From assembly GCA_900095095.1 (NCBI GenBank), contig FMBT01000612.1, forward strand, positions 1 through 36,612: a stretch of 36,612 nucleotides of DNA. The letters run 5' to 3'. The stretch's first letter is position 1, and each line of letters starts with the position of its first letter. The position numbers and the translations under genes are program-made. Source of the stretch: Fragilariopsis cylindrus CCMP1102 (Eukaryota; Bacillariophyta; Bacillariophyceae; Bacillariales; Bacillariaceae). Below the pieces are notes generated by a model. That model saw only the letters and a program-made list of their open reading frames with translations, ran no database searches and was not told the origin of the DNA. Below, piece by piece: positions 3,301-32,227 of this stretch.

Positions 3301-4413
3301 AATGCCTGGTGGACAATATACTAATCTCTTATTCCAGAGCAGTCAACTAGGATTGACTGGGCAGTGGAGTAAGGTCAAGAAAGCATATGCAACAGCTAAT
3401 GAATTGTTGGGTGATATTATTAAAGTCACTCCCTCGAGTAAAGTCACTGGAGATCTTGCACAATTTATCGTTGCCAATGACCTCACCAAGGAAGATATCA
3501 TCAAAAGAGCAGAGACATTATCCTTTCCAAAAAGTGTCATCGAGTACTTCCAGGGTTACCTTGGGATCCCTCCATTCGGTTTTCCTGAAGAATTACGCAG
3601 GAAAGTTCTGAAAGGACAGACCATTGAGGGCACGGATGGCTTGGTTTCCTTTGAAGGTCGTCCAGGTGCTGAAATGGCTCCATTTGATTTTGATAACGAG
3701 CGTCAGAAGCTGGAAGAACAATGGGGTGGTGATAAGACAGGAGGTGTTGGAGGTCATGTTAGATCTGGTCAAAATATTCGTGACGTCGATGTGATGTCGT
3801 CTGCCTTATATCCAGCGGTCTTCGAGGAATTTATGACCTACAAGAGAGATTATGGATCATTAAACTTCCTAGATACCAGGACATTTCTGACTGGTATGAA
3901 AGTTGGAGAAGAACTTGAGATTAGTCTCGAGCCGGGAAAGCATTTGATGATTAAGCTAGTAGCTCGATCAGAGCCGGATCAAGATGGGCATGTTACCATT
4001 CAGTTTGAATTGAATGGAACACCTCGTACGGTATCCGTTAAAGACAAGTCTCTCGGTGGCGAAGCCGCTACTGAGCGACCAAAGGCACTTAAGGGTGATG
4101 ATGGAAGTGTTGGTGCACCCATGCCTGGGGTGGTACTAGAGACGAAAGTTAAGAAAGGTGACAGTGTCGATGTTGGGTCTCCATTAGTATCGCTCTCAGC
4201 AATGAAGATGGTGAGTAATTGATTGTACTTAAGTTATTGTATGGTTTTGTTCATTTCCTTTTCCGTATATTTCCTCATCCTTGTCTTTTCTCACAATATT
4301 TTCAGGAAACAATGGTAGCATCACCTGTCAAAGGCGTTGTGGAACGAGTTGTTGTCACAGCTGGCGAAGAGGTTAGTGGTGGAGACTTGCTTGTCGAGAT
4401 TACAGAAGAATAG
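361..4413 (+). CDS. PYC: pyruvate carboxylase, mitochondrial-type, split by introns, one frameshift
   Basis: Biotin enzyme that carboxylates pyruvate to oxaloacetate (anaplerosis). Domain order is complete. The biotin carboxylase part (about 650-2080) has a [14 protein letters not shown] start, a glycine-rich ATP loop (MGGGGRG) and [15 protein letters not shown]. The carboxyltransferase barrel begins at [18 protein letters not shown] (about 2410) and contains [11 protein letters not shown]. The biotinyl domain has the acceptor lysine in SAMKM (4196-4210). Intron 4211-4305 (GTGAGT...TTTCAG) directly follows SAMKM and rejoins [10 protein letters not shown] in phase. An upstream intron ends at 895. 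The donor keeping frame is 772, since the stronger-looking GTACGT at 761 puts the next exon out of frame. The ATG at 361 opens a basic, acid-free presequence ([20 protein letters not shown]) of mitochondrial type. It joins the body in frame if an intron of about 425-570 (or 410-570) is removed. Near 2089 one extra base breaks the frame inside a conserved stretch. Expected product about 1228 residues. The family assignment is sure, the 5' structure is inferred. Confidence 0.93.
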
Positions 4414-9355: not shown

Positions 9356-10658
9356 TTATTCTACCTTACCCATTTGTGCTGCCATAACAGCCATTACAGT
9401 CCACATACGATTTTCTGCTTCGTTGAATACCAATGATGCGTCACTATAAATAACCTCATCTGTAACTTCTTCAACATGACGTGGTAGACAATGTAAAAAT
9501 ACAGCCCCATCATTTGCCTTACCCATCAACTCTGTATTAACTTGATATCCATCAAATTCCTTTACACGTTTTTCGTATTCATCTTCTTGACCCATACTAA
9601 CCCAAGTATCAGTAACGACAACATCAGCACCCTTTACAGCATCCTCAGCAACATTTGTTGTTGTTAAAGTAGCACCATTTTTTTTCGCAAGTACAACACT
9701 TTTTGCCATAATATCAGGATCACATTCATATCCTGCTGGTGTTGCAATTTGAACATTCATTCCCATTTTCAATGACCCTAACATAAGATCATGCAATACG
9801 TTATTACCATCACCGACCCATGCAACTGTCTTTCCGGACAAGTCCTTACCAAAATGTTGTTGCAATGCCATTAAATCTGCTAATGTTTGTAATGGATGAT
9901 GTAAATCACTTAATGCATTAATGATTGGTACAGAGGAATATTTTGCTAATTCTGTAATATCATTATGAGCGAATACACGTGCTAAGATTATATCATTAAA
10001 TCGACTTAATACAGATGCTGTATCTTTCATAGATTCATTTACACCAAGTTGAATATCAGATGGACCCAAAAAAAGAGCATGTCCACCAAGTAAGGCCATA
10101 CCTGTTTCACTTGAAACACGTGTCCGAGTTGATCGTTTTTGAAATATCATACTAACAGAATGTCCATCTAATGGTTTAGGTAACGACTTTGATTTATCAG
10201 AGTATGTAGCCTTAAATTGATGAGAAACATCCAATAATCCCTTCAATTCATCGTTACTGGCAATTAATTAATTGTTTTGGTCGTTTCGTGGAAAATTACA
10301 TGTATTGTGTAGTCAGTTAGTAATTCCATCAGTCACAGAAAAAAGGGACGTTTTGAATCAATGGAAATGTGGATGGGGTTCGGGCAGGAATAAGTGAGAC
10401 AAAACATAGTTATATATCTTGTCGGTAGACGACGACGAGAATTCCGTTCAATTCCATTTCGATGAGGTTGGAATATGAATGATACAAAACATGATGAAAG
10501 ACTCTACTCTACTCTTAAACTCACCTTAGCTGATCGATTGAAATAAAATGTTCACCTTTCAAAGTAGATACAGAGTCACTGAGAGATGATGCAAATCTAG
10601 CTGATATGTGTTGTCGTTTCACGACGGAAGTAATTACGGATCGACTGATGCTAAACAT
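9356..10658 (-). CDS. OTC: ornithine carbamoyltransferase, mitochondrial
   Basis: Transfers the carbamoyl group of carbamoyl phosphate to ornithine, giving citrulline, in arginine synthesis and the urea cycle. Two exons: 10525-10658 and 9356-10256. The intron 10257-10524 (GTGAGT...GCCAG) joins SIDQL-SNDELKGLLDVS in phase. The product has 344 residues, typical for the family. Carbamoyl-phosphate binding motif STRTR is at residues 87-91, HPLQTLAD follows in mid-protein, the ornithine loop is DTWVSMGQE, and the catalytic HCLPRH begins at residue 300 (Cys301). The N-terminus MFSISRSVITSVVKRQHISA is basic, without acidic residues, which supports mitochondrial import. In diatoms this enzyme is part of a mitochondrial ornithine-urea cycle, which fits. 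No frame damage was seen. Confidence 0.96.
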
Positions 10659-14192: not shown

Positions 14193-17100
14193 TTAGCGGT
14201 CGTAGTTTAAGATAGGTGACAACCAACGCTCAACCTTTTCAAGATCCATCTTTTTACGGTCGGCATAACTTTGAACCTGATCCTTTCCGATCTGTCCCAC
14301 AGCAAAGTATTCAGATTGTGGATGCGCAAAGACTAACGCAGAAACAGATGCAGCAGGCATCATACTCAATGACTCACTCAACTCTATGCCAGCATGCTCG
14401 TATACTTGTACAATATCCCACATAGTTGCTTTTTCTGTATGATCAGGTTGGGATGGATATCCGGGAGCAGGACGAATACCGTCGTACTTAATTTTCAGTA
14501 AATCAGATTCATCAAGATCTTCACCTTGAGCATATCCCCAAAGGTCAACACGAATCTCCCGATGCAAATATTCTGCGAAAGCTTCGACGAAACGGTCTGC
14601 AAGAGCTTGTGCCATAATTTTGGAGTAATCATCCTGTTCAGCTTCGTACTTCTGGACAAGGGCATCACAGCCAAAACAAGATACGGCGAAGAAACCGATG
14701 TGATCAGTGTAACCCTTTGGTGCAATAAAATCAGCTTGAGATAAGAATGGATCAGTTGATTCTTTTTCTGCTTGTTGTCGCAACATGCAAAACTTCCCAG
14801 CAATCTTTCCAGCCTCACGATCTTCTTCAGTTTCAAAAATATCAACATCTTCGCCATCTTCACTACGATTCGCAGGGAAGAGTCCACAAACACCCTTCAA
14901 ATGAAAGCTTCCATTTTCGACAATCTCATTCAACATTTTCTGAGCATCATCAAAGAGCTTTTTTGCCTCAGGGCCGACTGTCTTGTCTTCAAAAATCTTT
15001 GGATATCCCCGATTAGGATAACGACCACGCAACTCCCAAGTTTGGAAGAATGGATTCTACATTATCAGTCAATAGGAAAAGCAAAACAAATGTGAATGAG
15101 AGACGCGAACAAGAAGTGATAAATGACACAAATTAACTTGAAGCAAAAAAGGTAACACGTACCCAATCCATGTATGGGACAACATCCGCAAGTTTAACCG
15201 AATCGATCACAGTGATACCAGTCTTGGTCGGAACGGGAGCAGGTGGGACTGCATCAAAATCGATTTTCTTATGTTCCTTCTTGGCTTGTTCAAAAGTCAG
15301 GAAATTTCGATCCTCAAGTCCTGCATAGTAATCTTCTCTCATCTCGTCATATTCTTCTTGCAGATCATCAACGAAATCGGTCTTGTTCGCGTTAAGCAAT
15401 GAGGAAACAACAGTAACAGAACGCGATGCATCAAGTACATGAATGACTGGATGTGTCTCGTTAAAGAAATTGGGAGCAATCTTCACGGCTGTGTGCATCT
15501 TCGATGTCGTTGCTCCACCAATAAGAAGAGGCTGTTTGAATCCAGCCTTCGCAAGTTCTTTCGCGACGGTAACCATCTCATCTAGCGATGGAGTAATCAA
15601 TCCAGAGAGACCAATAACGTCAACGTTATATTCCTTTGCCTTCTCGAGAATTTTCTCACAAGAGCACATGACCCCAATATCATATACCTTATAATTATTG
15701 CAACCTAGCACAACTGCAACAATGTTCTTTCCGATGTCATGAACGTCACCTTTCACGGTAGCCATTAAGACTTTGCCTATAGAACCACACAAATAAGAAA
15801 AGATAAAAAATTAGTTTTGTATCGTAGCGATAAAAGACATAATAAGAAAGAAAAACATTGAGAAAAACACTAACCTGCATATTGTGAATCATCATCCTCA
15901 GGGACATCGTCCGGATCGAGACCTTGAGCAATAAGATTTTGTCTCTTTTCTTCGTCCATAAATGGAAGTAAATATGCTACTGCCTTCTTCATAACACGAG
16001 CAGATTTAATGACTTGAGGCAGAAACATCTTTCCGGCTCCGAACAAGTCACCAACGATATTCATACCGTCCATCAGAGGCCCTTCGATGACATGCAAGGG
16101 TTTTTCAGCCTCGAGTCTTGCTTCTTCAACGTCTTCAATAACGTATTCAGATATTCCATTGATAAGAGCATGTTCCAGACGCTTCTTAGCTACTTCGGTT
16201 CTCCACGACTTTGTAATAACCTTGACAACGTTGCCGCCTGCTTTACGAAGTTCGATCGCTTCCTTCTCCTTCTTCGTAAACTCGAGCATATTTTCGCATG
16301 CTTCAGGATCCCGATTCCAGATGAGATCCTCGCAGCACTCACGAAGATCAGCATCTACCTCACTCATCATAAGCATTTCATCTGAGTTGACGATACCCAC
16401 ATCCATTCCCGACTCACGAATGGCATGGTCCAAAAACACAGCATGAATAGATTCGCGAATTTTTGTTACTCCACGGAATCCAAACGATAAGTTGGAAATA
16501 CCACCACTGATCTTTACATAAGGGCATTGCTCCTTGATTGTCCTAGTTGCTTTGATGAAATCAATGGCATAGTCAGCATGCTCCTCCATTCCTGTACCAA
16601 TGGTCAAAACATTAGGATCAAATACAATATCTTCTGGTGGGAAATGCACTTCATTCACCAAAATATCATAGGATCTTTTACAAATACGGACTTTTTCACT
16701 CTCTGTAGCTGCTTGTCCATCTTCATCAAAAGCCATCACCACAACTGCTGCTCCGTGCTTCCTTAACAATGTTGCCTGCTCCTTGAAAAGCTCTACCCCA
16801 ACCTTCAGAGAAATCGAGTTCACAATGGGCTTTCCTTGGCACCATTTTAGACCAGCCATAACAATCTCAAACTTGGAAGCATCAAGCATGAAAGGGGCTT
16901 TGGCAACCTCTGGTTCTGTCACAGCAATCTTCACAAACTTTTCCATACATGCAATACCATCAAGCATACCATCATCAACATTGATGTCAATGACATGAGC
17001 ACCATCTTCCACTTGCTTCTTGGCAATGTCCATTGCAGTACCATAGTTCCCAGCCTTCATCAACTTCTTGAATCTGATTGATCCAGAAATGTTACAACGC

Positions 17101-20100
17101 TCTCCAACATTCAAAAAAGGAAGACCGAGTTGATTATGACAATCATCAACAACCAAATCCTCCAAACCAGAGAGCCACATCTTGGGTCGTCCTAAATCAG
17201 GGAGCTTTCGGGTCTCATACTTTGCAGCAGTTTCTCTGATAGCTTTGATGTGAGGTGGTGTTGATCCACAGCAACCTCCCACCATGTTCAACCACCCATT
17301 CTTGAAGAAAACCTCATTTCCTGCAGCCATATCAGTGGGACTTTCATCATATCCACCCATGGCATTAGGAAGGCCAGCATTGGAATACACATGGACAAAA
17401 CACTCAGCAACCTTGGAAAGTCTTTCAACAAAAGGAACCATGTGGCTAGCACCCAAAGCACAGTTCAAACCAACAACCATCGGCTTGCAGTGTCGAATCG
17501 AAGCATAGAAGGCCTCTCCAGTTTGACCAGAAAGAGTACGCCCGGATTGATCAACTAGAGTACCTGAAACAAAGAGAGGAATATCGAGCCCACTCATCTC
17601 GAGATATTCACCAACGGCATAGACAGCTGCTTTTGCATTCAAAGTGTCAAAAATAGTCTCCACCATCAAAATATCAGACCCTCCATCAACCAACCCAACA
17701 ATTTGTTCAAAGTAGGCATCAACGAGCTCATCAAATGTCACGTTACGTTCTGCAGGATCTTCTACAGAAGGGGATATGGAGCCTGTGCGGTTTGTAGGCC
17801 CGATTGCGCCAACCACAAACCTTGGCTTGGTAGGGTCTTTGGCAGTGACTTCATCGCACACTTCCCTTGCAAGTCTAGCAGATTCATAGTTCAGTTCGTA
17901 CACGTATCCCTCCATCTCATAATCAGCCATGGCAATGGTAGTAGAAGAAAAAGTATTGGTTCCAATCATATCAGATCCTCCAATTTCAAGGTATTGTCTA
18001 TAGATGCCTTGAATCACATCAGGCTGGGAGATACTCAACATATCATTGTTGCCTTTCACATTACAATTCCAATCCTTAAACGTCTCACCTCTAAATTCCT
18101 CCTCTTCCATTCTGTTCTTTTTTGCGTAGTTTTGGATCATTGTTCCCATAGCACCATCATATAAAGCAATTCTAGAGGAAAAAAGCTTTGTGATGTATTC
18201 CCTAAGGCTATCTCGTCCTCTCACAAAGTGGGGGAATGTTTCAGGAAAGAGGGTTGAATCTTGCCCGTGATCAATATTGACGTCCTTGTTTTTAATGGTA
18301 GATTTGGCTCTCTCTGCAAGGATCTTCTCGTGTGTGAGGTTAGAATTCAAGTAGGGATTCGGTACGTGATTACGAGCAGCATCGGAATATGGAAGGGGTG
18401 GTTCGGATTGAGGTGTTAATTCATCAGTATCCCACGAGAAGCGGACGCGATCGACATTCTGAATTTTACCTCTTGGTTTACGCGGAATCGGAAGATTTTT
18501 CTTTTTCGCTTCTGCGACAGATCGTTCGTATTCTGTCCTCGTCAACATATCCTCGGTCGCATCTTCGCTTTTATTAAAAATAAGATTTTCGCAAATTTCG
18601 CGCATGTCAGGCTCGAGTTTGTGGTAATCGAGTAATTCGTGGGAGTTAACAATACCAACGTCCATACCAGATTCCAAGATAGCGTGATAAAGAAATACAG
18701 AGTGGATGGATTCGCGAATTTTTGTTACTCCACGGAATCCAAACGATAAGTTGGAAATACCACCACTGATCTTTGCATAGGGACATTGCTCCCTGATTGT
18801 CTTGGTTGCATTGATGAAATCAATGGCATAGTCAGCATGCTCCTCCATTCCTGTACCAATAGTTAAAACATTAGGATCAAATACAATATCTTCTGGTGGG
18901 AAATGCACTTCATTCACCAACATATCATAAGATCTTTTACAGATACGGACTTTTTCACTCTCTGTAGCTGCTTGTCCTTCTTCATCAAAAGCCATCACCA
19001 CAACTGCTGCTCCGTGCTTCCTTAACAATGTTGCCTGCTCCTTGAAAAGTTTTTCTCCAACCTTCAAAGAAATTGAGTTCACAATGGGCTTTCCTTGGCA
19101 CCATTTAAGACCAGCCATAACAATCTCAAACTTGGAAGCATCAAGCATGAAAGGGGCTTTGGCAACCTCTGGTTCTGTCACAGCAATCTTCACAAACTTT
19201 TCCATACATGCAATACCATCAAGCATACCATCATCAACATTGATGTCAATGACATGAGCACCATCTTCCACTTGCTTCTTGGCAATGTCCATTGCAGCAC
19301 CATAGTTCCCAGCCTTCATCAACTTCTTGAATCTGATTGATCCAGAAATGTTACAACGCTCTCCAACATTCAAAAAAGGCATACCAAGTTGATTGACACA
19401 ATCGTCAACAACCAAATCCTCCAAACCAGAGAGCCACATCTTGGGTCGTCCTACATCAGGAAGCTTGCGGGGCTCATACTTTGCAGCAGTTTCTCTGATA
19501 GCTTTGATGTGAGGTGGTGTTGATCCACAGCAACCTCCCACCATGTTCAACCACCCATTCTTGAAGAAAACCTCATTTCCTGCAGCCATATCAGTGGGAC
19601 TTTCATCATATCCACCCATGGCATTAGGAAGGCCAGCATTGGAATACACATGGATAAAACACTCAGCAACCTTGGAAAGTCTTTCAACAAAAGGAACCAT
19701 GTGGCTAGCACCCAAAGCACAGTTCAAACCAACAACCATCGGCTTGGAGTGACGAATGGATGCGTAGAATGCCTCTCCAGTCTGTCCTGAGAGTGTCCGG
19801 CCAGACTGGTCAACTAGAGTACCTGAAACGAAAAGAGGAATGTCTAATCCACTCATCTCAAGGTACTCTCCAACAGCATAGATAGCTGCTTTTGCGTTCA
19901 GTGTATCAAAAATTGTCTCCACCATCAGAATATCAGATCCTCCATCAACCAAACCAACAATCTGTTCAAAGTATGCGTCAACAAGCTCGTCGAACGTAAC
20001 ATTTCGTTCTGCAGGATCTTCGACTGAAGGGGAGATAGATCCAGTACGATTCGTTGGACCAATAGCACCAACCACGAATCTTGGTCTAGTGGGATCTTTC

Positions 20101-20735
20101 GCAGTAACCTCGTCACAAACTTCTCTCGCAAGCCTAGCCGACTCGTAGTTTAATTCATATACATACGCTTCCATCTCGTAATCCGCCATCGCAATGGTAG
20201 TAGATGAGAATGTATTTGTTCCGATTAAATCCGATCCTCCGATCTCAAGATATTGTCGGTAAATTCCTTGGATAACGTCAGGTTGACTGATACTTAACAT
20301 ATCATTGTTTCCCTTGACATTACAAGTCCAATCTTTAAATGTTTCTCCTCTAAATTCCTCCTCTTCCATTCTGTGCTTTTTTGCGTAGTTTTGAATCATA
20401 GTACCCATGGCACCATCGTATGCTGAAATCTTGGTAGAGAAAAGAGTAGTGATGTACTCACGAAGACTATCTCGTCCTCTAACAAAGTGGGGAAATGATT
20501 CTGGATAAAGCGTCGCATCCTGTGCATAATCGATATTGACATCGCCTTTAATCGTTGACTTTGCTCTTTCCGCAGCAATCTTTTCGTGTACCAGTTTGGT
20601 ATTTAAATATGGATTTGGTACGTGATTACGAGCAGCATCGGAATATGGAAGCGGAGGTTCAGTTGCGGGGACTGGCTTAAAATCATCGTAGGCGAATTTC
20701 TTCCTTGGGTATATCTTCGCAGGTGCCGCAACCAT
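14193..20735 (-). CDS. metH: cobalamin-dependent methionine synthase with duplicated homocysteine/folate modules
   Basis: Transfers a methyl group from methyl-tetrahydrofolate via B12 to homocysteine. Three exons: 15875-20735, 15163-15776 and 14193-15056; introns 15777-15874 and 15057-15162 rejoin in phase ([29 protein letters not shown]). Product about 2112 residues against about 1230-1260 normally. The N-terminal half occurs twice. Each copy has an extension ([19 protein letters not shown]), a homocysteine domain ([15 protein letters not shown]) with zinc cysteines GLNCALG and [10 protein letters not shown] (Cys339, 402, 403 in copy A; 1092, 1155, 1156 in copy B), and a pterin domain ([16 protein letters not shown]). 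After copy B come the B12 cap, the B12 domain with DVHDIGKN (axial His about 1633), and the activation domain with [15 protein letters not shown] (from about 2020). Copy A is followed only by a remnant of a cap domain. All catalytic residues seen are present in both copies and the frame is open throughout. Confidence 0.95.
16451..17487 (-). repeat. methionine synthase internal duplication, high-identity tract, copy B
   Basis: This tract, covering the end of the homocysteine domain and most of the folate domain of copy B, is nearly identical in DNA to 18710-19746, at a constant offset of 2259 bases (753 codons). Outside it the two copies differ at many synonymous sites. The border near 17487 is abrupt: the next 200 bases differ about every few codons. 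Confidence 0.9.
18710..19746 (-). repeat. methionine synthase internal duplication, high-identity tract, copy A
   Basis: Partner of 16451-17487. For example the stretch 19501-19740 shows one mismatch against 17242-17481 by eye. Below 18710 the copies diverge sharply into unrelated-looking DNA encoding the remnant cap domain and linker of copy A. Confidence 0.9.
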
Positions 20736-21239: not shown

Positions 21240-21619
21240 GACTAGCTCCGAGCACTAGTACTCTCCAATAGCAACATCAATGATATCATTATTGATGACA
21301 CTGCAACAACAATCTGCAAGATGAATGTTCATAGCATATTGCTCATAGCATATTACACAACAACAACAACAACAACAACAGAAGATTACAAGTCCCCAAG
21401 CCAAAATTGATCATCACCTTACTTACTTAGTACTAACAACAATGACAGTAGTATATCATATAGGGCTTGAGAGAGTGGCTAAGGTGGTGGATGAGGAGGT
21501 TAGTATAGCATCAAGAGCAATGGCCCTGAAGACTCCAAAAAAGTTGAGAAATACTACTACAAGGTTAAGAACGATGATGGAGACTATTATTATCGCTTTG
21601 GATGCTGACACACTGCTGT
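20736..21619. other. intergenic, methionine synthase promoter region and 5' flank of retroelement
   Basis: No supported gene. It should contain the methionine synthase promoter. It holds an (AT)n microsatellite, CAA repeats at about 21359-21380, and a short direct repeat (CTCATAGCATATT, twice near 21328-21355). A 64-codon ORF at 21442-21636 runs into the LTR and has no recognisable domain. Confidence 0.5.
21202..21237. repeat. (TA)18 microsatellite
   Basis: Uninterrupted 36-base TA run about 470 bases upstream of the methionine synthase start and 380 bases before the 5' LTR. It is self-complementary and could form a hairpin or cruciform. Confidence 0.95.
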
Positions 21620-22432
21620 TGTTAAATTATACATAGTACTCAAGCGTAGGAGTCATATGTCGTACATAAGCCCCGCGGAGTAGAAATACGAGCGCGATGA
21701 GATTAGTGAGTGAGAATGCACGTGTATGCATTATTGAGATAAAAGAGAACCGAAAGTTAGCTAAAAGCCAACATCGTACTGTTGGAGTTGAAGTGACTGT
21801 CGAAGCAGTTGTCGAAGCAATTGGAACCGAGCGCAAATAAGAGAAGTGCTTAGGTATATTTATACAAATCGGAACACGATTAGGAAGAGTGTCCGAATAC
21901 ATAGAACACGATTATGAAGAGTGTTATACATATGGAAGTCGAACAGATGTCGATGTCCACCTTTGAACCGCTAATGCGATATATATGCATTGAGGCGAAG
22001 TGAGTTAGGAACAGAAAGTTGTATGCAAGGTTACTGGAAACCGCAATACTAAAATACGAAGAAAAGAGCAGAATTACCTCGATTACGAGAAATGAACAAT
22101 TACTGTCTTTTATTGTTGAGAAATTGTAATAACCATAGACTAATTAAACAAGTGTGTTAATAACAACTTTTGCGTTTGAACATATCGTTGTCTGGAAAGA
22201 TAATAGAAATATCTACATTTACAGAGTGAACATTGTTCGGAAGAACTTTCAGCATTCTAAAAGGGAGAGTATCCTGGTAGAACATCGCAACCAGTCTATA
22301 AGAATCGAGAGTATCTTTTCTTACCGTCATAGCAGAATCTTACAAGACCGAAGAGTAAGATTGTCTGAATATCAAATCCTATTTGATACTGAACCCGTTT
22401 CAACAATCATCGATTGTTTGTGAAACTTATCA
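21620..22432 (+). repeat. 5' LTR
   Basis: Direct repeat of 30209-31021 at an offset of 8589 bases. Differences are visible around 21778-21800 (small compensating indels) and at single bases near 22027, 22242 and 22332. It should carry the promoter and polyadenylation signals of the element. Minus-strand ORFs inside it appear in both copies and are incidental. Confidence 0.95.
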
Positions 22433-22629
22433 GATTAACAGTCGCAATTCTATCCTATAGAACTGCTGATCAACTTCCTTTGATTTCATTTTGAACATCA
22501 AGAGGACCGGAGATCCAATTAAATTTAATTGATATTATTGAATTAACGATCTCGAAAGAAGTCTAAATACAATATACTCATACCTCAAGTCTTACCGAAT
22601 AAGCAACTAGAGAAGTCATTCAACTGTGA
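22433..22629 (+). other. retroelement leader between LTR and gag-pol
   Basis: A 197-base untranslated leader. The primer-binding site would be expected right after 22432 (GATTAACAGTCGCAATTC). It does not show the usual initiator-methionine tRNA complement of many copia elements, so the primer is unidentified. Confidence 0.5.
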
Positions 22630-25600
22630 ATGAATCAAGAAGAAGAAAAAGAAGGAACAGCTAATAATCCACTACCCACAACAGGAAGTGATAATAGCGA
22701 TAGTCCATCTTATTCTTACTTGTCGGCAGCCAGCCTATCGCCAATACCCGAAGCGTCGCTCGACAGCTCTACTCCTCCAAGAGAAGATCCAAGTCTACTG
22801 ACACCTTTGCGTCAAAGTACTACCTCTCCAAGGTCCGCGAAACCACTCAAGAGAAAGCAGCAATATCTATCGACGAGAGGAGAAGCAGAACCTGAAGCGA
22901 AACTAGATCATAACAACAGCGCTCTAAGCGGCTCTAGTTCCGGCGATTCAACAGATTCTGCTATACCCAGCTTGGATTCATATCTAGCAGGACATCAGAT
23001 CAAATCTATTGTCTCGAAAGAAACAACAAACGACCCAGAAGAGAGTATCGAAAGAAACGACGATAACGACAAAGGAACAAGTCCACCTGATCCTTCAGAT
23101 CCTCAAGACCCATCCGATCCTTCTAAGACTACAATGCCGTCCACTCGAACAACACCTACGGTAGCGACAACTGCTATAGTTCAAAAAGATCTAGAACATC
23201 TGTTAGTAGATATCATGGCACTTAAGCTCACGGATTATGTCTCGTTAGCACTTCACCGTCAAGGATGTCGTTCCTTTGAAGATTTCTGTGTATTAGATGA
23301 AATTGACACAGACACTCTTCAATACGATACGGTAGATGGTATTTCTAATACGATTAAAGCAGAGCCATGTAATTCAACAGACAGGAAGAAGATCAAGCGT
23401 GCTGTTGCCTACTGCGCATTTCGTGAAAGTGATGGATCCGATGTTGAGAGACGTAATCCAACAGCATGGGTTGCAGCTGATTACTCTACATGGTGTAGAA
23501 CTGGATATCCTGCCTGGCTTATCACACTCTCGAATGCAGCGTCAGTAACCTCATCTTCAGGAACGAGTGGTAGCTCAGCTGGTACTATCTTTTTACCTAA
23601 AAGCCAATTAGAAAAGGACCAAGATGCATTGCTTGTTAGCTGGAATAGAAGCCCAAGAGATATTGCTAAATATCCACATATCAAGGATGATGTAGGTTAC
23701 GGAGAATGGTTTATCAAGATGAAACGGCAATTGAAGGCTGATCGATTATGGCGGGTAGCAGCACCTAATTGGACAATTGCTAAGAATTGCAGTACAGGAT
23801 CCGATACAATTTTAGCCGAACTTCAGCTAAACTATTTCGAACAGATCCTAGCTGCAGTTCTTCAGAATCCCGAAGGTAAAGGTTTACTAACCACACATCC
23901 AGAAGATTCACTTTATGTATGGAAAAAGCATGAGGAACATCAGACGTCATCTGATTCTGCAATGCAAGGTACACATATCTTGATGAATAAGATAATGTCT
24001 TTAACGATTACTAAGTTCGATACAAGATACGAATTTCTCATTTCGTTCCAAGAATGTGCTGACAAGTATGACAAGATCGCAAGAAAGCCTCTCGACGAAG
24101 ATTTTAAGATTATGCTTCTTCAAAAAGCCACTAATCCTGATGTCGCTCTTTCCAATAGTTGGGTACAAAAGACAGAAGCAAAGAGAGCCAATGCGTTACC
24201 TGGTGCACCTACTGCTGTTTCATATACGGAATACCTAAAGTTCCTGATGCAACAATCAAAGGTACACGATTTGAACACTCCATTCAAACGGCCAACTCGC
24301 CATGCGCATCAAGCTGAATCATTTTACAATGATAATGACAACGGCGTTATCGACGGAGAAGACGATGGTACTAGTGATTTCATTGCAAATATGTCCATTT
24401 CTGGTGAAACTATGAGCAATGAACAAACGGTACTCGCCTTCGCCGCTTATCAACGCAACCGTCCGCCACCTCGTCCTCGAGATCCAGAAGCTGATATCGA
24501 CCAAGCAATATACAGCAAGTGTTCTAGGGAATTTCGCATTGCATGGAGCAAGGAGCCAACGGATATCAAGAAGCAGATTCTTAAACAGAATAACAACAAA
24601 TCTCCTAAGCAAGGTGCTAAGAAGAATAGTGAATTAGCTGTTTACATGGGTCAGTCTGAAGGCTACGAAACAGATACATCTGCATATTCAGAAGCTACGT
24701 ACGGATACGACGCTGATGACAATGACGATCAATCTGTTATTGAAGCTACCGAGCTAGTTGCAAATGCAGCAAGAAGACGCCCCAATGGAATCCTCAAGAA
24801 GAAAGATCTTCCAAAGAAGACCGATCTACCAATTGCTGATCCACGAAGAATGCTGTCCAATAGATCTACACCATTAATCGGAAAAGATGGAAATATCACT
24901 GGACATCTCACGTATACAGCCTCTATGGCAGTAATCCGTCACCGATTCGATCAAGTCGATTCTTCGCAAGCAGTTTCCATCGAAGATAACTATGTCATAT
25001 CCGTCAATGCAACCAAATTCTTTGATGAACCGCTTGCATTAATGGACGGAGGCGCTAATGGTGGAATCGCAGGCAGCGATATGAGAGTTATGTCATACAA
25101 CTCGGACGGACGACGTGTTAATATTGGCATTGCAGGTGATCATCAAATGACGGGCAAGAAACTCGGTACCTTTTGCGCTGTGATCGAAACTCGATTCGGA
25201 CGTGTTCTAGCAATATTCCATCAATATGCTCATGTACCCGAACAAAGACGATCAATTCATTCTAAATGCCAATTTCAAGCGCATCACAACCTAGTTGGTG
25301 ATACAGCGACAGCCTATGGCGGTCTTCAACGCATCGATACAGCAGATGGGTATCAACTACCTTTAACTATTCGAGCAGGATTACCATACATCCGTCAAAC
25401 GTATCCCACCGATGCTGATATGAACCTTCCACAAGTACAATTTACTTCACCTTCTCAATGGGATCCCAATCTTAATGATGATAACCGTACATCAGAAGAA
25501 ATGATACGAACATTTCCTCCTATTCCTAAAGAAGCCATCGATAACTTCTATGATGAATATGGAAGAACTAACTACGAATATTTACAAAAGCGTGTAAATA

Positions 25601-27510
25601 AAACCGTTGAGATTGAACCTGACGATGATGACAGTGTTGGTACTATGCCCGGTTTACAAGATCGAGCTCGAGAAGATTCCTCAAGTGATGATGATAGTGT
25701 TGTGGAACATATCCGACCATCTACCTCAATTGAATGGAATGTTCCAATCGATGACTCCAATGGGGAGAAAATTGAATGTCCTCGACTTAGGAAAAGTAAG
25801 CTCAAACGTCGTATTCGAATCAAAGAAAAACGACTCAAAGCTGCGTCCTCTAAGCAAGAACTGACTGACAAGAAAACATCTGCTTCTAAAGCTAATGATT
25901 TACCAATCCCAATTATTGATAACATGGGCAATAATAAGGAATCATCTACAATGGTAGACGGCATAAAATTCTTTCCGGCAGAACGTAATTCGACTTGCAC
26001 CGACATTATTGAGGACAATAATATCGAAGATTTGAACGATCAAATATTTTATGACTCCACTGAAGTACTTCATGATCCTAACATCTTTGTTGACACTGTA
26101 TCCGACACAGCGTATCTAGATGACATGTCGACGCCTCGACCTACGGAGCACGAGTACTGGGAAGACTTTCTATCAAACGAAGTCACTCAACGTCTTATTT
26201 ATCAAGGCATCATTGATTCCTGTGAACAATATGACATCAACGCTAACGATATAGCTTCTGTAATGACGCCTCTCAAGCCAAGATATTCGGTACCCACACC
26301 GATTGACTACGAATCCAAACGGAAATATTTTGCACATCTACCGGCAGATATTATTAGAAATACCTTTAAGAATACAACGCAAAATATGAAGCTGCCTCCA
26401 TCTACGAACCTGCACAAGATGTTTAAGTCACCTAATCCTTCTGCAAACCTCAAACGTCGAGACGAAGCTGATGCAACTGACATGATCTATTCAAATACAC
26501 CTGCTATAAATGGTGGTGAGAAATGTGCTCATATCTTCGTTGGTAAAAAGTCAAAACTGACTGATGCATACAAGGTTAAAAATGGTTCTTCTGAAGAGTT
26601 TCTAGAAAGCCTACAAGATCGAGTCCGTTATCGAGGATGTCCTACAGGATTAGAAGCAGATAATGCTCCTATGTACCGCGGTTGGAAAAACTCACGATAT
26701 CTCCGAGATATATGTATTTCCCAGTGGCAGTGTGAATCGAAATATCAGCATCAAAATTACGCTGAAAATCGATGGCAAACTGTCAAGCGGTACACTAACC
26801 GAGTCATGGATCGCAGCGGCTGCCCTCCTTACATTTGGTTTCTAGCATTATCGTATGTCATCTTCTGCCTCAATCATTGTGTTGATCCTATGCTCGGAGA
26901 TGGAACCAAAAGTCCTTTGCAAATCGCGACATTCCAAATGACCGATATTAGTCCTCTGCTGTACTTTTATTTTTGGGAACCTGTTTATTTTCTTCTCGAT
27001 GAAAAGGAACGAAAGTTTCCAGGAAAATCAAAAGAATGCAGAGGCCATTGGGTAGGAGTATCAGAACACATTGGAAACAAGATGACCTACAAAATCATTA
27101 CAGATGATACTGGAGAAGAAATTTGCCGATCTGCCATACGTACTGCACGGGACACTACGATGAAGAATCTACGCGAAGATCCAATCACGATTGATGATAA
27201 CCTACTCAACGTAGAAGATATCATTTCTCCAGCAGAAGAAATTGCAAATATCAAGTTAAAAGAAGTAACCTCGGGAAATACTTTTAACAATTTTGATACT
27301 ACAGCAATATTAAAGAACATCGGACGACCAACTACAAGAGGAACTGAAAGTAAAAGCAAAACTAAAGCTCATCAACTACAAGAAGAAGCGGATGACTACT
27401 TTTTTGATTCAAATGAACAGCAAACTGGTCATTTTAACACAGCACCTCCTGTTGTCCCGTTAAATCGTCGCTGCCCAAACGTTCATCTACTACCAAGTCG
27501 AAACATGTAA
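22630..27510 (+). CDS. retrotransposon gag-protease-integrase polyprotein
   Basis: One open frame of 1626 residues from ATG 22630. The N-terminal 180 residues are disordered and Ser/Pro/Asp rich. A gag-like helical region follows (about 190-560), without a visible CCHC zinc knuckle. A retroviral-type aspartic protease centres on ALMDGGANGG (about residue 805, DGGA in place of the usual D-S/T-G). The integrase region is toward the C-terminus: GLEADNAPMYRGW gives a catalytic-type Asp, and HQNYAENRWQTVKR the Glu. A downstream segment (SPLLYFYFWEPVYFLL, GHWVGVSEHIG) resembles the copia integrase C-terminal part. The stop at 27508 comes before the reverse transcriptase, where a frameshift continues a related sequence. 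Codon use is plain and no damage is seen within this frame. Confidence 0.9.
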   Translation: MNQEEEKEGTANNPLPTTGSDNSDSPSYSYLSAASLSPIPEASLDSSTPPREDPSLLTPLRQSTTSPRSAKPLKRKQQYLSTRGEAEPEAKLDHNNSALSGSSSGDSTDSAIPSLDSYLAGHQIKSIVSKETTNDPEESIERNDDNDKGTSPPDPSDPQDPSDPSKTTMPSTRTTPTVATTAIVQKDLEHLLVDIMALKLTDYVSLALHRQGCRSFEDFCVLDEIDTDTLQYDTVDGISNTIKAEPCNSTDRKKIKRAVAYCAFRESDGSDVERRNPTAWVAADYSTWCRTGYPAWLITLSNAASVTSSSGTSGSSAGTIFLPKSQLEKDQDALLVSWNRSPRDIAKYPHIKDDVGYGEWFIKMKRQLKADRLWRVAAPNWTIAKNCSTGSDTILAELQLNYFEQILAAVLQNPEGKGLLTTHPEDSLYVWKKHEEHQTSSDSAMQGTHILMNKIMSLTITKFDTRYEFLISFQECADKYDKIARKPLDEDFKIMLLQKATNPDVALSNSWVQKTEAKRANALPGAPTAVSYTEYLKFLMQQSKVHDLNTPFKRPTRHAHQAESFYNDNDNGVIDGEDDGTSDFIANMSISGETMSNEQTVLAFAAYQRNRPPPRPRDPEADIDQAIYSKCSREFRIAWSKEPTDIKKQILKQNNNKSPKQGAKKNSELAVYMGQSEGYETDTSAYSEATYGYDADDNDDQSVIEATELVANAARRRPNGILKKKDLPKKTDLPIADPRRMLSNRSTPLIGKDGNITGHLTYTASMAVIRHRFDQVDSSQAVSIEDNYVISVNATKFFDEPLALMDGGANGGIAGSDMRVMSYNSDGRRVNIGIAGDHQMTGKKLGTFCAVIETRFGRVLAIFHQYAHVPEQRRSIHSKCQFQAHHNLVGDTATAYGGLQRIDTADGYQLPLTIRAGLPYIRQTYPTDADMNLPQVQFTSPSQWDPNLNDDNRTSEEMIRTFPPIPKEAIDNFYDEYGRTNYEYLQKRVNKTVEIEPDDDDSVGTMPGLQDRAREDSSSDDDSVVEHIRPSTSIEWNVPIDDSNGEKIECPRLRKSKLKRRIRIKEKRLKAASSKQELTDKKTSASKANDLPIPIIDNMGNNKESSTMVDGIKFFPAERNSTCTDIIEDNNIEDLNDQIFYDSTEVLHDPNIFVDTVSDTAYLDDMSTPRPTEHEYWEDFLSNEVTQRLIYQGIIDSCEQYDINANDIASVMTPLKPRYSVPTPIDYESKRKYFAHLPADIIRNTFKNTTQNMKLPPSTNLHKMFKSPNPSANLKRRDEADATDMIYSNTPAINGGEKCAHIFVGKKSKLTDAYKVKNGSSEEFLESLQDRVRYRGCPTGLEADNAPMYRGWKNSRYLRDICISQWQCESKYQHQNYAENRWQTVKRYTNRVMDRSGCPPYIWFLALSYVIFCLNHCVDPMLGDGTKSPLQIATFQMTDISPLLYFYFWEPVYFLLDEKERKFPGKSKECRGHWVGVSEHIGNKMTYKIITDDTGEEICRSAIRTARDTTMKNLREDPITIDDNLLNVEDIISPAEEIANIKLKEVTSGNTFNNFDTTAILKNIGRPTTRGTESKSKTKAHQLQEEADDYFFDSNEQQTGHFNTAPPVVPLNRRCPNVHLLPSRNM

Positions 27511-30214
27511 AACCTAAGAAATTACGCGACTTACATCCAAAAGATCCAGTAGAGAAAAGGAACACGTAGTAGTAAACGTTTGCGAGATATGAACATTCAT
27601 GCAATGAATGCACTCATGACAAACGAAGTACAACCTGAACAAGACCTTCCGTTATCAACTAGTCGCAACAAGAACATGTTACGGATATCAACCATCCCAC
27701 CAACCCACGGCCATCGCCTCTAACCCGTCAACAGGTTCTGAAAAATCGTGATACGCATATCACCGAACAAGAAGATCAATTTGTCTATCTACGAGAAAAT
27801 GGGGAGAATGAAAATCCTATATGGCAAGAATTTGAGTTTCCTCTCGAAGACGAAAATGGTAACGCGGTAATCGGAGAAGATGGCAAACCGATGGTAATAA
27901 TAGCACCTCCACCAAGTGACCTAGTAGGAAGAGTATTTCTAACCAAACCAGACGAGAGAGGTGAAGTTAATCGAGCACGAGTTGTAGAACTTATCAAGAA
28001 CTTCGACGGCGAAGTAGAGAAGAATCAAGATCTAATCAGGTTCAAGCTTAACTATGATCACAGTTCCCAAGAAGATATCATGTCTTACAACGAGATCCTA
28101 GATTACATCGAAAGAGAGAAAACAATGAAGACGGACATCATTGGAAGTTTCGTACTATATTAGGACACGTGCATACTCCTGTGGGACACAAGGAAAGAAT
28201 GGGGAGTGACTATAATGTCAGACGGCTTGGGAAACTGGAGCAGTTTCGGTTGAACCATTGGACTTCCTTGCTAAGGATATCCCAGTTGATCTTGCTATAT
28301 ATGCCAAGAAACCGACCTACTTGAGTTAGAGGGATGGAAACGCTTTAAAAAGAATTGCTAACCGAGATCAGCATATTCGACGACTTGTGAAACAAGCCAA
28401 GCTACGTTCCTTCCGTGTTACTCCGAAGTACAAGTATGGATTCTCTATACCACGCAATTACAAGGAAGCCCTTGAATTTGACGAAAGGAACGGAAACCAT
28501 AAATGGCAAGAAGCAAATGTACTGGAACATGCGCAACTAACCGACTATGCAGTATTCAAGAATAAGGGGTAAATTCAACGAAGCAAAGATACCAGAAGGA
28601 TATCGAAAGATTCAGGTTCATACTATCTTTGATGTGAAACACGATGGCAGACACAAGGCTCGAGTTGTAGCTAATGGTAATCTAACGGATGTACCTCTTG
28701 AATCTGTTTACTCAGGTGTTGTTTCATTACGTGGCTTACGTACATGCATATTCTTAGGAGAGCTGAACAACATGACTCCATGGGCTACTGATATTGGAAA
28801 TGCTTATCTTGAAGCAAAGACCACAGAAAAGGTATGTATCAAAGCAGGGCCAGAATTTGGGGAGCTACAAGGAAACCTTCTTATCATCGATAAGGCTCTT
28901 TACGGACTACGACTTAGCGGAAAAGCTTTCAACATTTTGCTATCTGACTGTCTACGAGACCTAGGATTCTTTCCATCTAAAGCCGAGTCAAGTATTTTCA
29001 TGAAAAATGTCCCACAAGAGATGTGTACGAATATGTGGCCACATATGTCGATGACCTATGCATTATTATGGAGAACCCGTTAGAGTTCCTCGAGCAGCTG
29101 TCGTCAGCACCGTACAACTTCAAACTGAAAGGTTCAGGAGAAGTTAACTTCCACTTAGGATGTGGATTTGAAAGAGACTCTGATGGAGTTCTATGTATGA
29201 ACCCAGGTCGGTACGTCGATAAGATGGAAGATGCCTACAAGCAAGTCTTCAAGGAATTGCCTAAACAGAAGTACAGATCGCCGTTAGTAAAAGGAGACCA
29301 TCCAGAGCTTGATACAACCGCATTCCTTGACCAAGACGGAATTGAGATATATCAATCATTAATAGGAGCTATGCAATGGGCAATCTCTATAGGACGATGG
29401 GATATTCAATCGGCAGTAATGACCTTATCAAGTTTCAGGGCTCAACCAAGAAAAGGACATCTTGAAAGAATCAAACGTATCTACGGATTCTTATGCAAGT
29501 TCAGGCATTTCAAACTACGCTTTCGAGTTGATGAACCAGATTATTCCGGTACTCCACCAATGCCACCTTACGATTGGAGCCATTCCGTATATGGAAACCC
29601 AACTGAAGACATCCCTAAAGATGCACCGCCTCCACTGGGAAAACGAATCGTTTTGACCCATTACTTCGATGCAAATCTAATGCATGACGTACTCTCCGGA
29701 AAGGCAGTTACAGGCGTAGTTCATTTCTACAACAAGACTCCAGTCGATTGGTATTCCAAGAAACAATCTACTACAGAGACTGCAACATACGGATCTGAAT
29801 TCCTAGCATGTCGAACTTGTTTCGAACAGATCATTGATCACCGACAGTATCTACGATACCTTGGAGTACCAGTGGGTGGGAGACTACGCATGGGGAGACA
29901 ATGATGCTATGATTAATAGTGCAACCATACCTGACGCAAAGTTACATAAACGACATAACATTCTGTCATTTCACTTTGTTAGAAGCTTAATTGCAAGTGG
30001 TTTCATTAATCTGCAACATATCAAATCGGAAAGTAATATCGCGGATATACTTACGAAACATTGGGGTTACCAAAGTACTTACGAGTTGATCCGTCCAATC
30101 TTTCATTTTGGAGGTAACACGGCCGCGCTGTATTTTGATGATACATTAGAAGTCGATCGCTACATTACTCAATCAGAGTTAGATGAAATCGTTACGATCA
30201 ATGGGGAGTGTTAA
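27511..30214 (+). pseudogene. retrotransposon reverse transcriptase/RNase H region, frameshifted
   Basis: Continuation of pol, split over several frames. 27511-28385 is a degraded spacer with pieces that look like a chromodomain-like fold (28140-28330). 28387-28572 is the start of the reverse transcriptase. 28547-29083 carries the palm, with KARVVANGNLT and ATDIGNAYLEAKT. 29023-29904 carries the catalytic YVDD at 29044-29055 and the beginning of RNase H (TETATYGSEFLACR). 29834-30214 carries the end of RNase H (GDNDAMINSA, HIKSESNIADILTKHW). At least four frame changes or stops separate these pieces. The final TAA (30212-30214) overlaps the first bases of the 3' LTR. The region is non-functional as it stands, unless the sequence contains errors. 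Confidence 0.88.
30199..30208 (+). other. polypurine tract before 3' LTR
   Basis: CAATGGGGAG lies immediately before the TG of the 3' LTR, the position where plus-strand DNA synthesis is primed. The purine run is short (GGGGAG), so it is a positional call. Confidence 0.6.
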
Positions 30215-31021
30215 ATTATACATAGTACTCAAGCGTAGGAGTCATATGTCGTACATAAGCCCCGCGGAGTAGAAATACGAGCGCGATGAGATTAGTGAGT
30301 GAGAATGCACGTGTATGCATTATTGAGATAAAAGAGAACCGAAAGTTAGCTAAAAGCCAAACATCGTTTTGGAGTTGAAGTGACCTTGTCGAAGCAGTTG
30401 TCGAAGCAATTGGAACCGAGCGCAAATAAGAGAAGTGCTTAGGTATATTTATACAAATCGGAACACGATTAGGAAGAGTGTCCGAATACATAGAACACGA
30501 TTATGAAGAGTGTTATACATATGGAAGTCGAACAGATGTCGATGTCCACCTTTGAACCGCTAATGCGATATATATGCATTGAGGCGAAGTGAGTTAGGAA
30601 CAGAAAGTTGTATGCAGGGTTACTGGAAACCGCAATACTAAAATACGAAGAAAAGAGCAGAATTACCTCGATTACGAGAAATGAACAATTACTGTCTTTT
30701 ATTGTTGAGAAATTGTAATAACCATAGACTAATTAAACAAGTGTGTTAATAACAACTTTTGCGTTTGAACATATCGTTGTCTGGAAAGATAATAGAAATA
30801 TCTACATTTACAGAGTGAACATTGTTCGGAAGGACTTTCAGCATTCTAAAAGGGAGAGTATCCTGGTAGAACATCGCAACCAGTCTATAAGAATCGAGAG
30901 TATCTTTTCTTACCGTCATAACAGAATCTTACAAGACCGAAGAGTAAGATTGTCTGAATATCAAATCCTATTTGATACTGAACCCGTTTCAACAATCATC
31001 GATTGTTTGTGAAACTTATCA
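30209..31021 (+). repeat. 3' LTR
   Basis: Nearly identical partner of the 5' LTR (TGTTAAATTA ... ACTTATCA). Followed by CTATTATTACCC, which shows no match to the five bases preceding the 5' LTR. Confidence 0.95.
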
Positions 31022-32227
31022 CTATTATTACCCAATTATGATAGAACCCCTTCTATTTTATACTCTAAGGAAGAGTAGGAAGAGAACAACAAATACAAGA
31101 TGCATTATTATTTTAGCTGTATTTTGGTGATAGGACTTACTGGATGCATACAATAATTCTCTTACTTGCACCTCCCTCCAGTTACCAACCAAAACTCAAA
31201 TGCTTTCTCTGTAGTTGTATGCGATGAAAAAATTCGCAAACAAACCATCTATTTTGATCCCTGTTTTTTCCCTGCTTCCTTTTGTGTGTTTAGAACTTTA
31301 TTAAATAATCAACTCCTCTTTTTTAATGGTTGTACTGTACAGAGAAATGGATTTTTACCATTCATGGTCGTCGTATTCTCAACCCACGATTGACTTTTTC
31401 TTTTACTTTTCCTCCATGCAACGAAATTTGTCTACGAGAATAGAGCTGGAAGAAATTTAATACGATAAAAGTTAGGACACGGAGAATGAATGATTGGAGA
31501 TTGAACGCTTTTTTTTCTCTCTCACTGCATATGAATGCACGTACTTTTCTCTTATGAATTCGTGTGAACAGCTTTCGTTGCACGGAGGAGTAGCAGTGAG
31601 TGTCAAGATCTCAAAATCTTGTTTTTTACAGAACAAAACATCACATCATGAATTATGACGACGACGAAGAAAAAAAAAGTAAAATAATGCATTCTAGTTT
31701 TCATTCTTATTTTACTGTATCACATAAATTATCATACACTGCACTACTGTCAGTATATCTGTATTGACATACGACATACAATAACTGTAAAAACAAATAG
31801 CAATTCATACATACTATAGTACAGAGCAGTGAGTGGTTGTGTCATTCATTTTAGTCCTGTGGTCCTGTTGTTCTACCGGTAAAGAAGAAAAAGGAAAGAA
31901 GAAGAAATAAAACAGCAGGCAGGATCGACAGAGAGGCAACAACAACAACCAAAAAATACGGTAGCATTATTGTTCCATGTCAATAATTACTTATTATTGT
32001 CGTCGACGTCATCATCAGTTGTTACAATTACAATTACTTGTATTGTATTTCGTTATTACGAATGTTATATTGTATCAATAACTGCATTCAACTTTAACTT
32101 GAACGATAGTCAAAATAACAGTAGTAACAATAACAATAACCAGAGAGGTAATAACAACAGCAATAACAACATCAATAGCAATAGCAACAGCAATAGTAAT
32201 CGCAATAACAATAGCAATAGCAACAAT
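31022..32227. other. intergenic after retroelement and poly-Asn 5' region of PCMT
   Basis: 31022-31969 has no supported gene and is AT rich. From 31970 an ATG opens a frame that runs into the isoaspartyl methyltransferase through a long Asn/Ser repeat (CAATAGCAA-type units, about 32100-32227). This may be an N-terminal extension of that protein or a transcribed 5' UTR repeat; the conserved protein itself begins at the ATG at 32228. Confidence 0.5.

Follow-up and report, generated by a model that had tools for sequence, protein, structure and literature searches.

Why would a methionine synthase carry its two substrate-binding domains twice and its cofactor-binding domains once? The question is raised by METH, a gene of the diatom Fragilariopsis cylindrus CCMP1102 on a contig (FMBT01000612.1, C128 in our numbering, from a 67.9-Mb assembly of 818 contigs) whose entire length of 36.6 kb was analysed and is called the window here. 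Algae do not make vitamin B12 but take it up, its supply limits many of them, and METH is the enzyme behind the need for it (PMC10828217, in part). The homocysteine (Hcy) and folate (Fol) domains of known enzymes form one rigid N-terminal half (N-half), a 70-kDa unit in human MTR, which a flexible Linker 2 joins to the C-terminal half (C-half), and the cobalamin-binding domain (Cob) has to travel about 50 Å between Fol and Hcy (PMC10567725 and PMC13376404, in part).

The METH gene lies on the minus strand, and its three exons join into a single frame of 2112 amino acids (aa) with one terminal stop. Exon 1 is contained in an open reading frame that runs from 20735 to 15870 without interruption for 1621 codons; its 3' end, at 15875, adjoins a GT donor. 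The parts of the gene, with Pfam accessions and scores where a domain was matched, are as follows:

14193-20735, minus strand: whole METH gene (three exons, 2112 aa), joined exons with GT..AG introns
15875-20735, minus strand: exon 1, both N-halves and the Cap domain, open frame
20469-20735, minus strand: N-terminal extension of the first N-half, head A (aa 1-89), low AlphaFold confidence
19488-20417, minus strand: homocysteine domain of head A (aa 107-416), PF02574, 2.6e-83
18645-19364, minus strand: folate domain of head A (aa 458-697), PF00809, 4.5e-47
18711-19751, minus strand: gene-conversion tract, copy A (aa 329-675), from third-position differences and a permutation test
18210-18500, minus strand: inter-head linker of ~97 residues (aa 746-842), which includes the N-extension of the second N-half, head B; mostly low-confidence in models
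17229-18164, minus strand: homocysteine domain of head B (aa 858-1169), PF02574, 3.5e-83
16386-17105, minus strand: folate domain of head B (aa 1211-1450), PF00809, 3.7e-47
16452-17492, minus strand: gene-conversion tract, copy B (aa 1082-1428), from third-position differences and a permutation test
16212-16235, minus strand: Linker 2, from Fol B to Cap (aa 1501-1508), predicted local distance difference test score (pLDDT) under 50
15969-16184, minus strand: single Cap domain (aa 1518-1589), PF02607
15777-15874, minus strand: intron 1, GT..AG
15163-15776, minus strand: exon 2, single cobalamin-binding domain, PF02310 at 15774-15490, DVHDIG at aa 1631
15057-15162, minus strand: intron 2, GT..AG
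14193-15056, minus strand: exon 3, single activation domain (Act), PF02965 at 15056-14250, 5.1e-105

Each N-half has one Pfam match to S-methyl_trans and one to Pterin_bind, the C-half has one match each to B12-binding_2, B12-binding and Met_synt_B12, and the NCBIfam metH models TIGR02082 and NF007024 find two matching stretches on exon 1 and continue across exons 2 and 3. The order is [Hcy-Fol]A, long linker, [Hcy-Fol]B, short Linker 2, Cap, Cob, Act. The repeated unit returns at an offset of 752-753 codons (a 12-residue peptide at 26 and 778, GGCCGS at 400 and 1153), takes in most of the N-terminal extension and coincides with the rigid N-half of human MTR; a 44-residue tail of head A, of the stramenopile type (CENL..N...ATEDML.RT.YER...RKPR), precedes the second N-extension and head. 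The original prediction of two full homocysteine/folate halves before a single B12 cap, B12 and activation domain, with a period of 753 codons that includes the N-extension, is thus borne out, and the layout recurs on a second contig and in many relatives. In AlphaFold models, head A (aa 90-755) forms a confident N-half, whose best match in a fold search with head A is the N-half of human MTR (TM 0.97 by target, rmsd 1.6); aa 758-790, the residues before about aa 841 in the model of head B with Cap, and the short Linker 2 have low confidence, disorder in the extension and linker being less sure because the alignments there are shallow. By sequence, membership in the MetH/METH family is clear: a three-cysteine Hcy domain and a pterin domain occur twice each, followed by Cap, Act and a Cob whose DVHDIG matches the cobalamin-domain motif DxHxxG. 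With two Hcy and two Fol domains, the layout departs from the canonical order, which has one of each.

The second contig (C608, 300.7 kb) carries the same METH and is collinear with window positions 1-21340 (~21 kb) at about 95-99% identity. The two coding sequences are equal in length (6339 nt) and differ at 92 positions, 77 of them third codon positions, with 11 amino-acid differences, and we read the two contigs as two haplotypes. Nonsynonymous over synonymous change (dN/dS) between them is 0.0014/0.069 for copy A, 0.0034/0.070 for copy B and 0.0022/0.038 for the remainder, which indicates strong purifying selection on both heads. No further METH was found in the assembly, in which the exon-1 protein and PF02965 each match two places among the best candidates scored.

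Relatives share the layout widely. At least two GGCCG head motifs are present in 80 of 120 relatives among the matches listed in a protein search, and proteins of about 2100 residues, which the original prediction had proposed to look for, do occur: Nitzschia inconspicua P0006 (2113 aa) and Hondaea fermentalgiana P0064 (2120 aa) are two-headed, as are Epithemia clementina P0033 and the transcript-derived MMETSP proteins P0051 and P0060 (Mucochytrium quahogii). Further searches, with P0064 and P0088, returned three Hcy and three Fol domains in P0121 (2851 aa) and Chrysophaeum taylorii P0122 (2877 aa), as well as in Chlamydomonas eustigma P0137, Botryococcus P0138, Dunaliella salina P0139 and P0142; truncated P0001 has three folate domains and three motifs with fewer than three homocysteine domains, and each of these seven proteins has at most one C-half. 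Every long green-algal protein found is two- or three-headed, Astrephomene P0150, Mesostigma P0124 and Chlorokybus P0148 having two. Across 162 proteins (161 matches and the window protein; a domain was counted when its match covered at least 60% of the module), Cob and Act are both present in 106, with two Hcy domains in 56, one in 46 (5 of which carry two folate domains) and three in 4, counts that are biased to multi-head forms by multi-headed queries and by taking the best 120 per search. Cap, Cob and Act each occur at most once in all 162, and N-halves up to three times. A motif rule classed 16 of 104 rows as truncated, and the one-headed entry P0100, which starts within an A-type tail, is a 5'-truncated multi-head protein. 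The inter-head linker has a median of 97 aa in 86 non-green linkers. In the rows examined, multi-head METH proteins are named 'methionine synthase', a synonym, or 'hypothetical protein'.

Some relatives stand apart. P0088 (1936 aa) and P0089 (1923 aa) are two-headed with near-identical tails on both heads, P0088 is 85-89% identical to one-headed P0140, P0141, P0143 and P0144, and the pair is possibly a recent, separate duplication. The Aureococcus models P0085 and P0123 appear rearranged or incomplete, P0085 beginning inside a folate domain and carrying three folate SN.SF motifs with one full homocysteine domain; both may be faulty models of a gene with several heads. The partial two-headed METH P0083 is labelled Sphagnum compactum, and our guess is an algal contaminant. 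Viral contigs gave 12 pattern matches, none of them a relative.

How old is the second head? Copies A and B are 87% alike across a 300-nt stretch, and their similarity is uneven along the repeat. Of the 347 codons of aa 329-675 in haplotype 1, 20 have unlike third positions, against 209 of the 380 codons beyond them (20/345 and 208/382 in haplotype 2), a contrast equalled in 0 of 2000 permutations, which delimits a tract of about 1 kb. Outside it, the copies of haplotype 1 disagree at 75 of the 127 four-fold sites of aa 10-330 (59%) and at 7 of the 8 in aa 691-730, where 69% is expected for unrelated letters. Among sites variable in both copies, 9 in the tract co-vary per contig (A1=B1, A2=B2), 1 is crossed, and 1 outside co-varies. 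Near-saturated flanks and co-varying sites within the tract together point to an old duplication whose middle has been homogenised by conversion within chromosomes. A recent duplication was rejected, since the overall similarity stems from the conversion tract between these flanks. In the unconverted aa 131-330 the heads differ at just 6 of 200 residues (7 of 200 in haplotype 2), with synonymous change too large to estimate; few residue differences despite silent sites near saturation show that both heads have long been under selection. A comparison of the 5' flank with the linker gave no DNA signal of homology (score 21; shuffle mean 20.6, maximum 38), and the starts of the two N-extensions have a weak protein resemblance (0.0015 of shuffles were as good).

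The same pattern extends to other species. Half-by-half comparison of the 74 two-head proteins with both halves complete (73 matches and the window protein) gave a median core identity (aa 130-330 and 331-670) of 1.00 within a protein and 0.82-0.84 between proteins, and in either region 134 of 148 halves had their partner in the same protein as nearest neighbour. The tails (aa 698-745) behave differently: of 148, 133 lie nearest to the tail at the equivalent position in another protein, 15 to their partner in the same chain, and none to the opposite half of a foreign protein. We read this as most of these two-head proteins sharing one ancestral duplication, with cores homogenised later; the 15 exceptions, some with both tails alike (P0088, P0089, P0077, P0073), may reflect wider conversion or separate duplications. 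Among the matches listed, the closest protein to that of the window is P0002 (1597 of 1621 residues identical). Because metagenomic assemblies can give both copies one consensus, perhaps in P0002, the comparison was redone on 14 proteins, 12 of them encoded on contigs longer than 100 kb and 2 derived from transcripts, with P0085, P0061 and P0123 among those excluded as rearranged or incomplete. In 11 of these 14, one or more pairs of a protein's own heads were more alike than any foreign head, the exceptions being the window protein (closest to P0002), P0039 (0.897 to its own, 0.915 to Epithemia) and P0051 (1.000 to both). Green-algal heads have their nearest head within the same protein in 30 of 30 cases (13 proteins).

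For the C-half, a quick maximum-likelihood tree with 110 rows (support by the SH-like approximate likelihood ratio test, SH-aLRT, only; head labels are motif-based and miss some heads, P0137 being labelled two-headed with a domain count of three and P0110 one-headed despite an A-type tail) places 83 rows in one clade (SH-aLRT 97) of diatoms, the pelagophytes Chrysophaeum and Aureococcus, and the thraustochytrids Hondaea and Mucochytrium. These groups share the inter-head junction and position-specific tails. One-headed oomycetes (Pythium, Lagenidium) and Fibrocapsa fall outside, and 11 green rows, all multi-headed, form their own clade (100); green and stramenopile multi-heads differ in junction sequence.

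Both heads retain the residues that the reaction would require. Manual mapping from alignments places the zinc cysteines at C339/C402/C403 and C1092/C1155/C1156, and the residues that contact methyltetrahydrofolate (MeTHF) in human MTR (N, D, N, R, R, R; list from PMC13376404, in part) are intact in both copies, in line with the original claim that zinc cysteines and pterin motif are preserved twice. Among relatives, 183 of 188 complete heads (97 multi-head proteins) keep all nine ligand residues and 5 depart at one, heads having been chosen by a GGC[CS]G-type motif that partly fixes two adjacent zinc positions and leaves the other seven free. Serine replaces the third zinc cysteine (position 403) in one head of two in four proteins, the first head in P0027, P0057 and P0058 and the last in P0039; such a head is perhaps partly specialised.

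We consider it rather probable that this METH combines two catalytic N-halves with one cofactor C-half, both N-halves binding homocysteine and methyl-folate and sharing one methylcobalamin in turn. The idea put forward with the original prediction, that both halves could share one B12 domain, fits what was observed. The single methylcobalamin domain would dock on either head alternately, one head could exchange product for substrate while the other services cobalamin, and turnover per B12 molecule could thereby be raised. As the duplicated unit is the rigid N-half, two loaded heads could alternate on one cobalamin, and a 97-aa random-coil tether would, with general scaling constants for such chains, hold head A at a local concentration of roughly 1 mM (a rough estimate). 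In E. coli MetH, MeTHF is the first to bind and tetrahydrofolate (THF) the last off (PMC13376404, in part), so that one head could reload while the other uses cobalamin.

Several observations count against such sharing. The ligand residues lie within the tract aa 329-675 (R674 at its edge), so their identity alone is no proof of independent use: one selected head could maintain both. Inside the tract (aa 331-650 against 1084-1403) 13-15 of 320 residues separate the heads although silent differences are few (dN/dS about 0.24), a figure above that between the two contigs; the residue changes are possibly head differences under selection that survive conversion. Head B has D1436 and M1457 in place of tyrosines near-invariant in bacterial MetH (78 and 80 of 80). 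One-headed Skeletonema, Mediolabrus and Nitzschia sp. Nitz4 are nested among two-head diatoms in the C-half tree; some lineages can do without a second head, or else these assemblies are collapsed. A METE gene with both Pfam domains lies on two contigs of the assembly, so B12 economy is not forced by auxotrophy.

The best-surviving alternative is that the second N-half is a redundant by-product, unequal recombination making repeats and conversion overwriting decayed copies, with two heads of no benefit. Demonstrated conversion, a head number that varies between one, two and three, nested one-head forms and ligand residues inside the tract would all fit. It is harder to reconcile with aa 10-328, where silent sites near saturation imply a long time without conversion and yet the residues of aa 131-330 barely differ, with the junction and tails retained from diatoms to Hondaea, Mucochytrium, Chrysophaeum and Aureococcus, and with the multiplication of the N-half alone, and we think this alternative rather unlikely.

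Alternatively, head B alone might serve the cofactor, with head A a folded sensor, a substrate buffer, a docking module or a separate homocysteine methyltransferase. A normal short Linker 2 adjoins head B alone, A-type and B-type tails are distinct across proteins, and the serine substitutions affect one head of two; we nevertheless hold this division of labour to be unlikely, given that nearly all heads keep their nine ligand residues (the zinc positions being partly fixed by motif choice) and that the tyrosine changes make no consistent A/B difference. Of the 95 inner and 93 last heads compared in multi-head proteins, 44 and 29, respectively, have tyrosine at position 704, and 19 and 15 have it at position 683. 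A split of function through a divergent folate-sensing loop in head B (D1436, M1457) does not hold as a general explanation and was rejected: other multi-head proteins retain neither tyrosine consistently in either head.

It is very improbable that the gene also yields a one-headed enzyme through alternative transcripts or internal starts: head B has its own N-extension, but no Met occurs from aa 758 to the DGAM of head B, the first being at 863, exon 1 has no intron in the gene model used, and MMETSP proteins of relatives are two-headed (P0051, marked 'type:complete', and P0060), an indirect answer to the single-copy transcripts that the original prediction considered. That the layout is an artefact of assembly or gene model is scarcely credible and was rejected, for although long similar repeats are prone to misassembly, identical cores in metagenomic relatives could partly reflect repeat-resolution errors (P0002 may be one) and the Aureococcus model P0085 appears rearranged, the two collinear contigs each hold the layout with their own, haplotype-like differences, the junction of A tail and B head falls outside the homogenised tract, MMETSP-derived proteins display the layout, and so do other species, on contigs of 4.6 Mb in N. 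inconspicua, 367 kb in Epithemia, 110 kb in Hondaea and 176 kb in Chrysophaeum. The second contig and the other species thus answer the assembly artefact that the original prediction had named as a possible refutation.

A broader proposal, which we advance tentatively and with some doubt, is that multi-headed METH is a general design for cofactor economy in algae and their relatives, with two or three N-halves per cobalamin domain, so that a single scarce B12 would serve several loaded active sites by rotation. It would probably have arisen more than once (in stramenopiles, in green algae and perhaps in the P0088/P0089 lineage) and be maintained by selection and conversion, and some one-headed diatom models may be collapsed assemblies of the repeat.

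Elsewhere in the window, biotin carboxylase/pyruvate-carboxylase-like frames lie at 817-4222 (plus strand) and an aspartate/ornithine carbamoyltransferase frame at 9356-10246 (minus strand). Upstream of METH the DNA differs between the two contigs, collinearity with C608 ending at 21340. Two direct repeats of ~640 nt (634 of 642 positions equal, spacing 8589) lie at 21798-31028, and additional equal stretches begin at 21620. The long open frame between the repeats (22630-27510) has no Pfam match, and the arrangement resembles a recently inserted long terminal repeat (LTR) retrotransposon. Near the contig end, 35993-36477 holds two families of short imperfect repeats. The silicon-transporter family, which marks the assembly as that of a diatom, matches it at exon level 27 times.

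No description of a METH with repeated N-halves was found among the papers listed by the literature searches, with subscription papers outside their coverage, and sequences of multi-head METH are already public. A survey of 1666 strains used reciprocal BLAST, trees and Pfam domains to score METH, and its passages with 'duplicat', 'repeat', 'tandem' or 'architecture' make no mention of METH copies (PMC11439496, in part); the CBA1 study searched for METH by profiles (PMC10828217, in part). A heads-to-cofactor ratio of 2:1 or 3:1 is not mentioned in the parts of PMC10567725 and PMC13376404 consulted. Such a ratio would provide a natural experiment to show which step limits the enzyme, the exchange of substrates or the travel of cobalamin, and the layout would alter the reading of METH genes, B12 quotas and METH transcripts in plankton data. 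METH also exemplifies tandem enzyme halves in long-term concerted evolution whose ends remain distinct.

Judged by its sequence relatives, the METH described here is a variant of a known enzyme that is also present in other diatoms and their relatives, with a similar layout in green algae. Human MTR (PDB 9ssp, 4ccz) shares the N-half fold with the head A model at 51-53% identity, its residues 16-768 align by sequence with the B half and Cap, and the ligand residues and the order Cap-Cob-Act are common to both; its chain of 1265 residues has one N-half, whereas METH has two, plus an N-extension and the ~97-aa inter-head linker. Bacterial MetH matches the same family models, TIGR02082 and NF007024, but has one GGCCG motif where METH has two: none of 80 loci was multi-headed (one motif in 80/80, frames of at most 1285 aa, three of them short at 772-1049 aa), nor was any among the matches listed for 299 genomes (267 with a match; cap-containing frames of at most 1397 aa). 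Green-algal METH (P0137, P0138, P0139, P0150, P0124, P0148) resembles that of F. cylindrus in joining two or three N-halves to at most one C-half and differs in junction sequence and in linkers that are mostly shorter (15 linkers, 48-131, median 50 aa). The closest counterparts are P0006, P0033, P0064, P0060 and P0122, which have the layout and the A-type tail of METH here and a similar junction, P0122 differing, like P0121, in having three heads.

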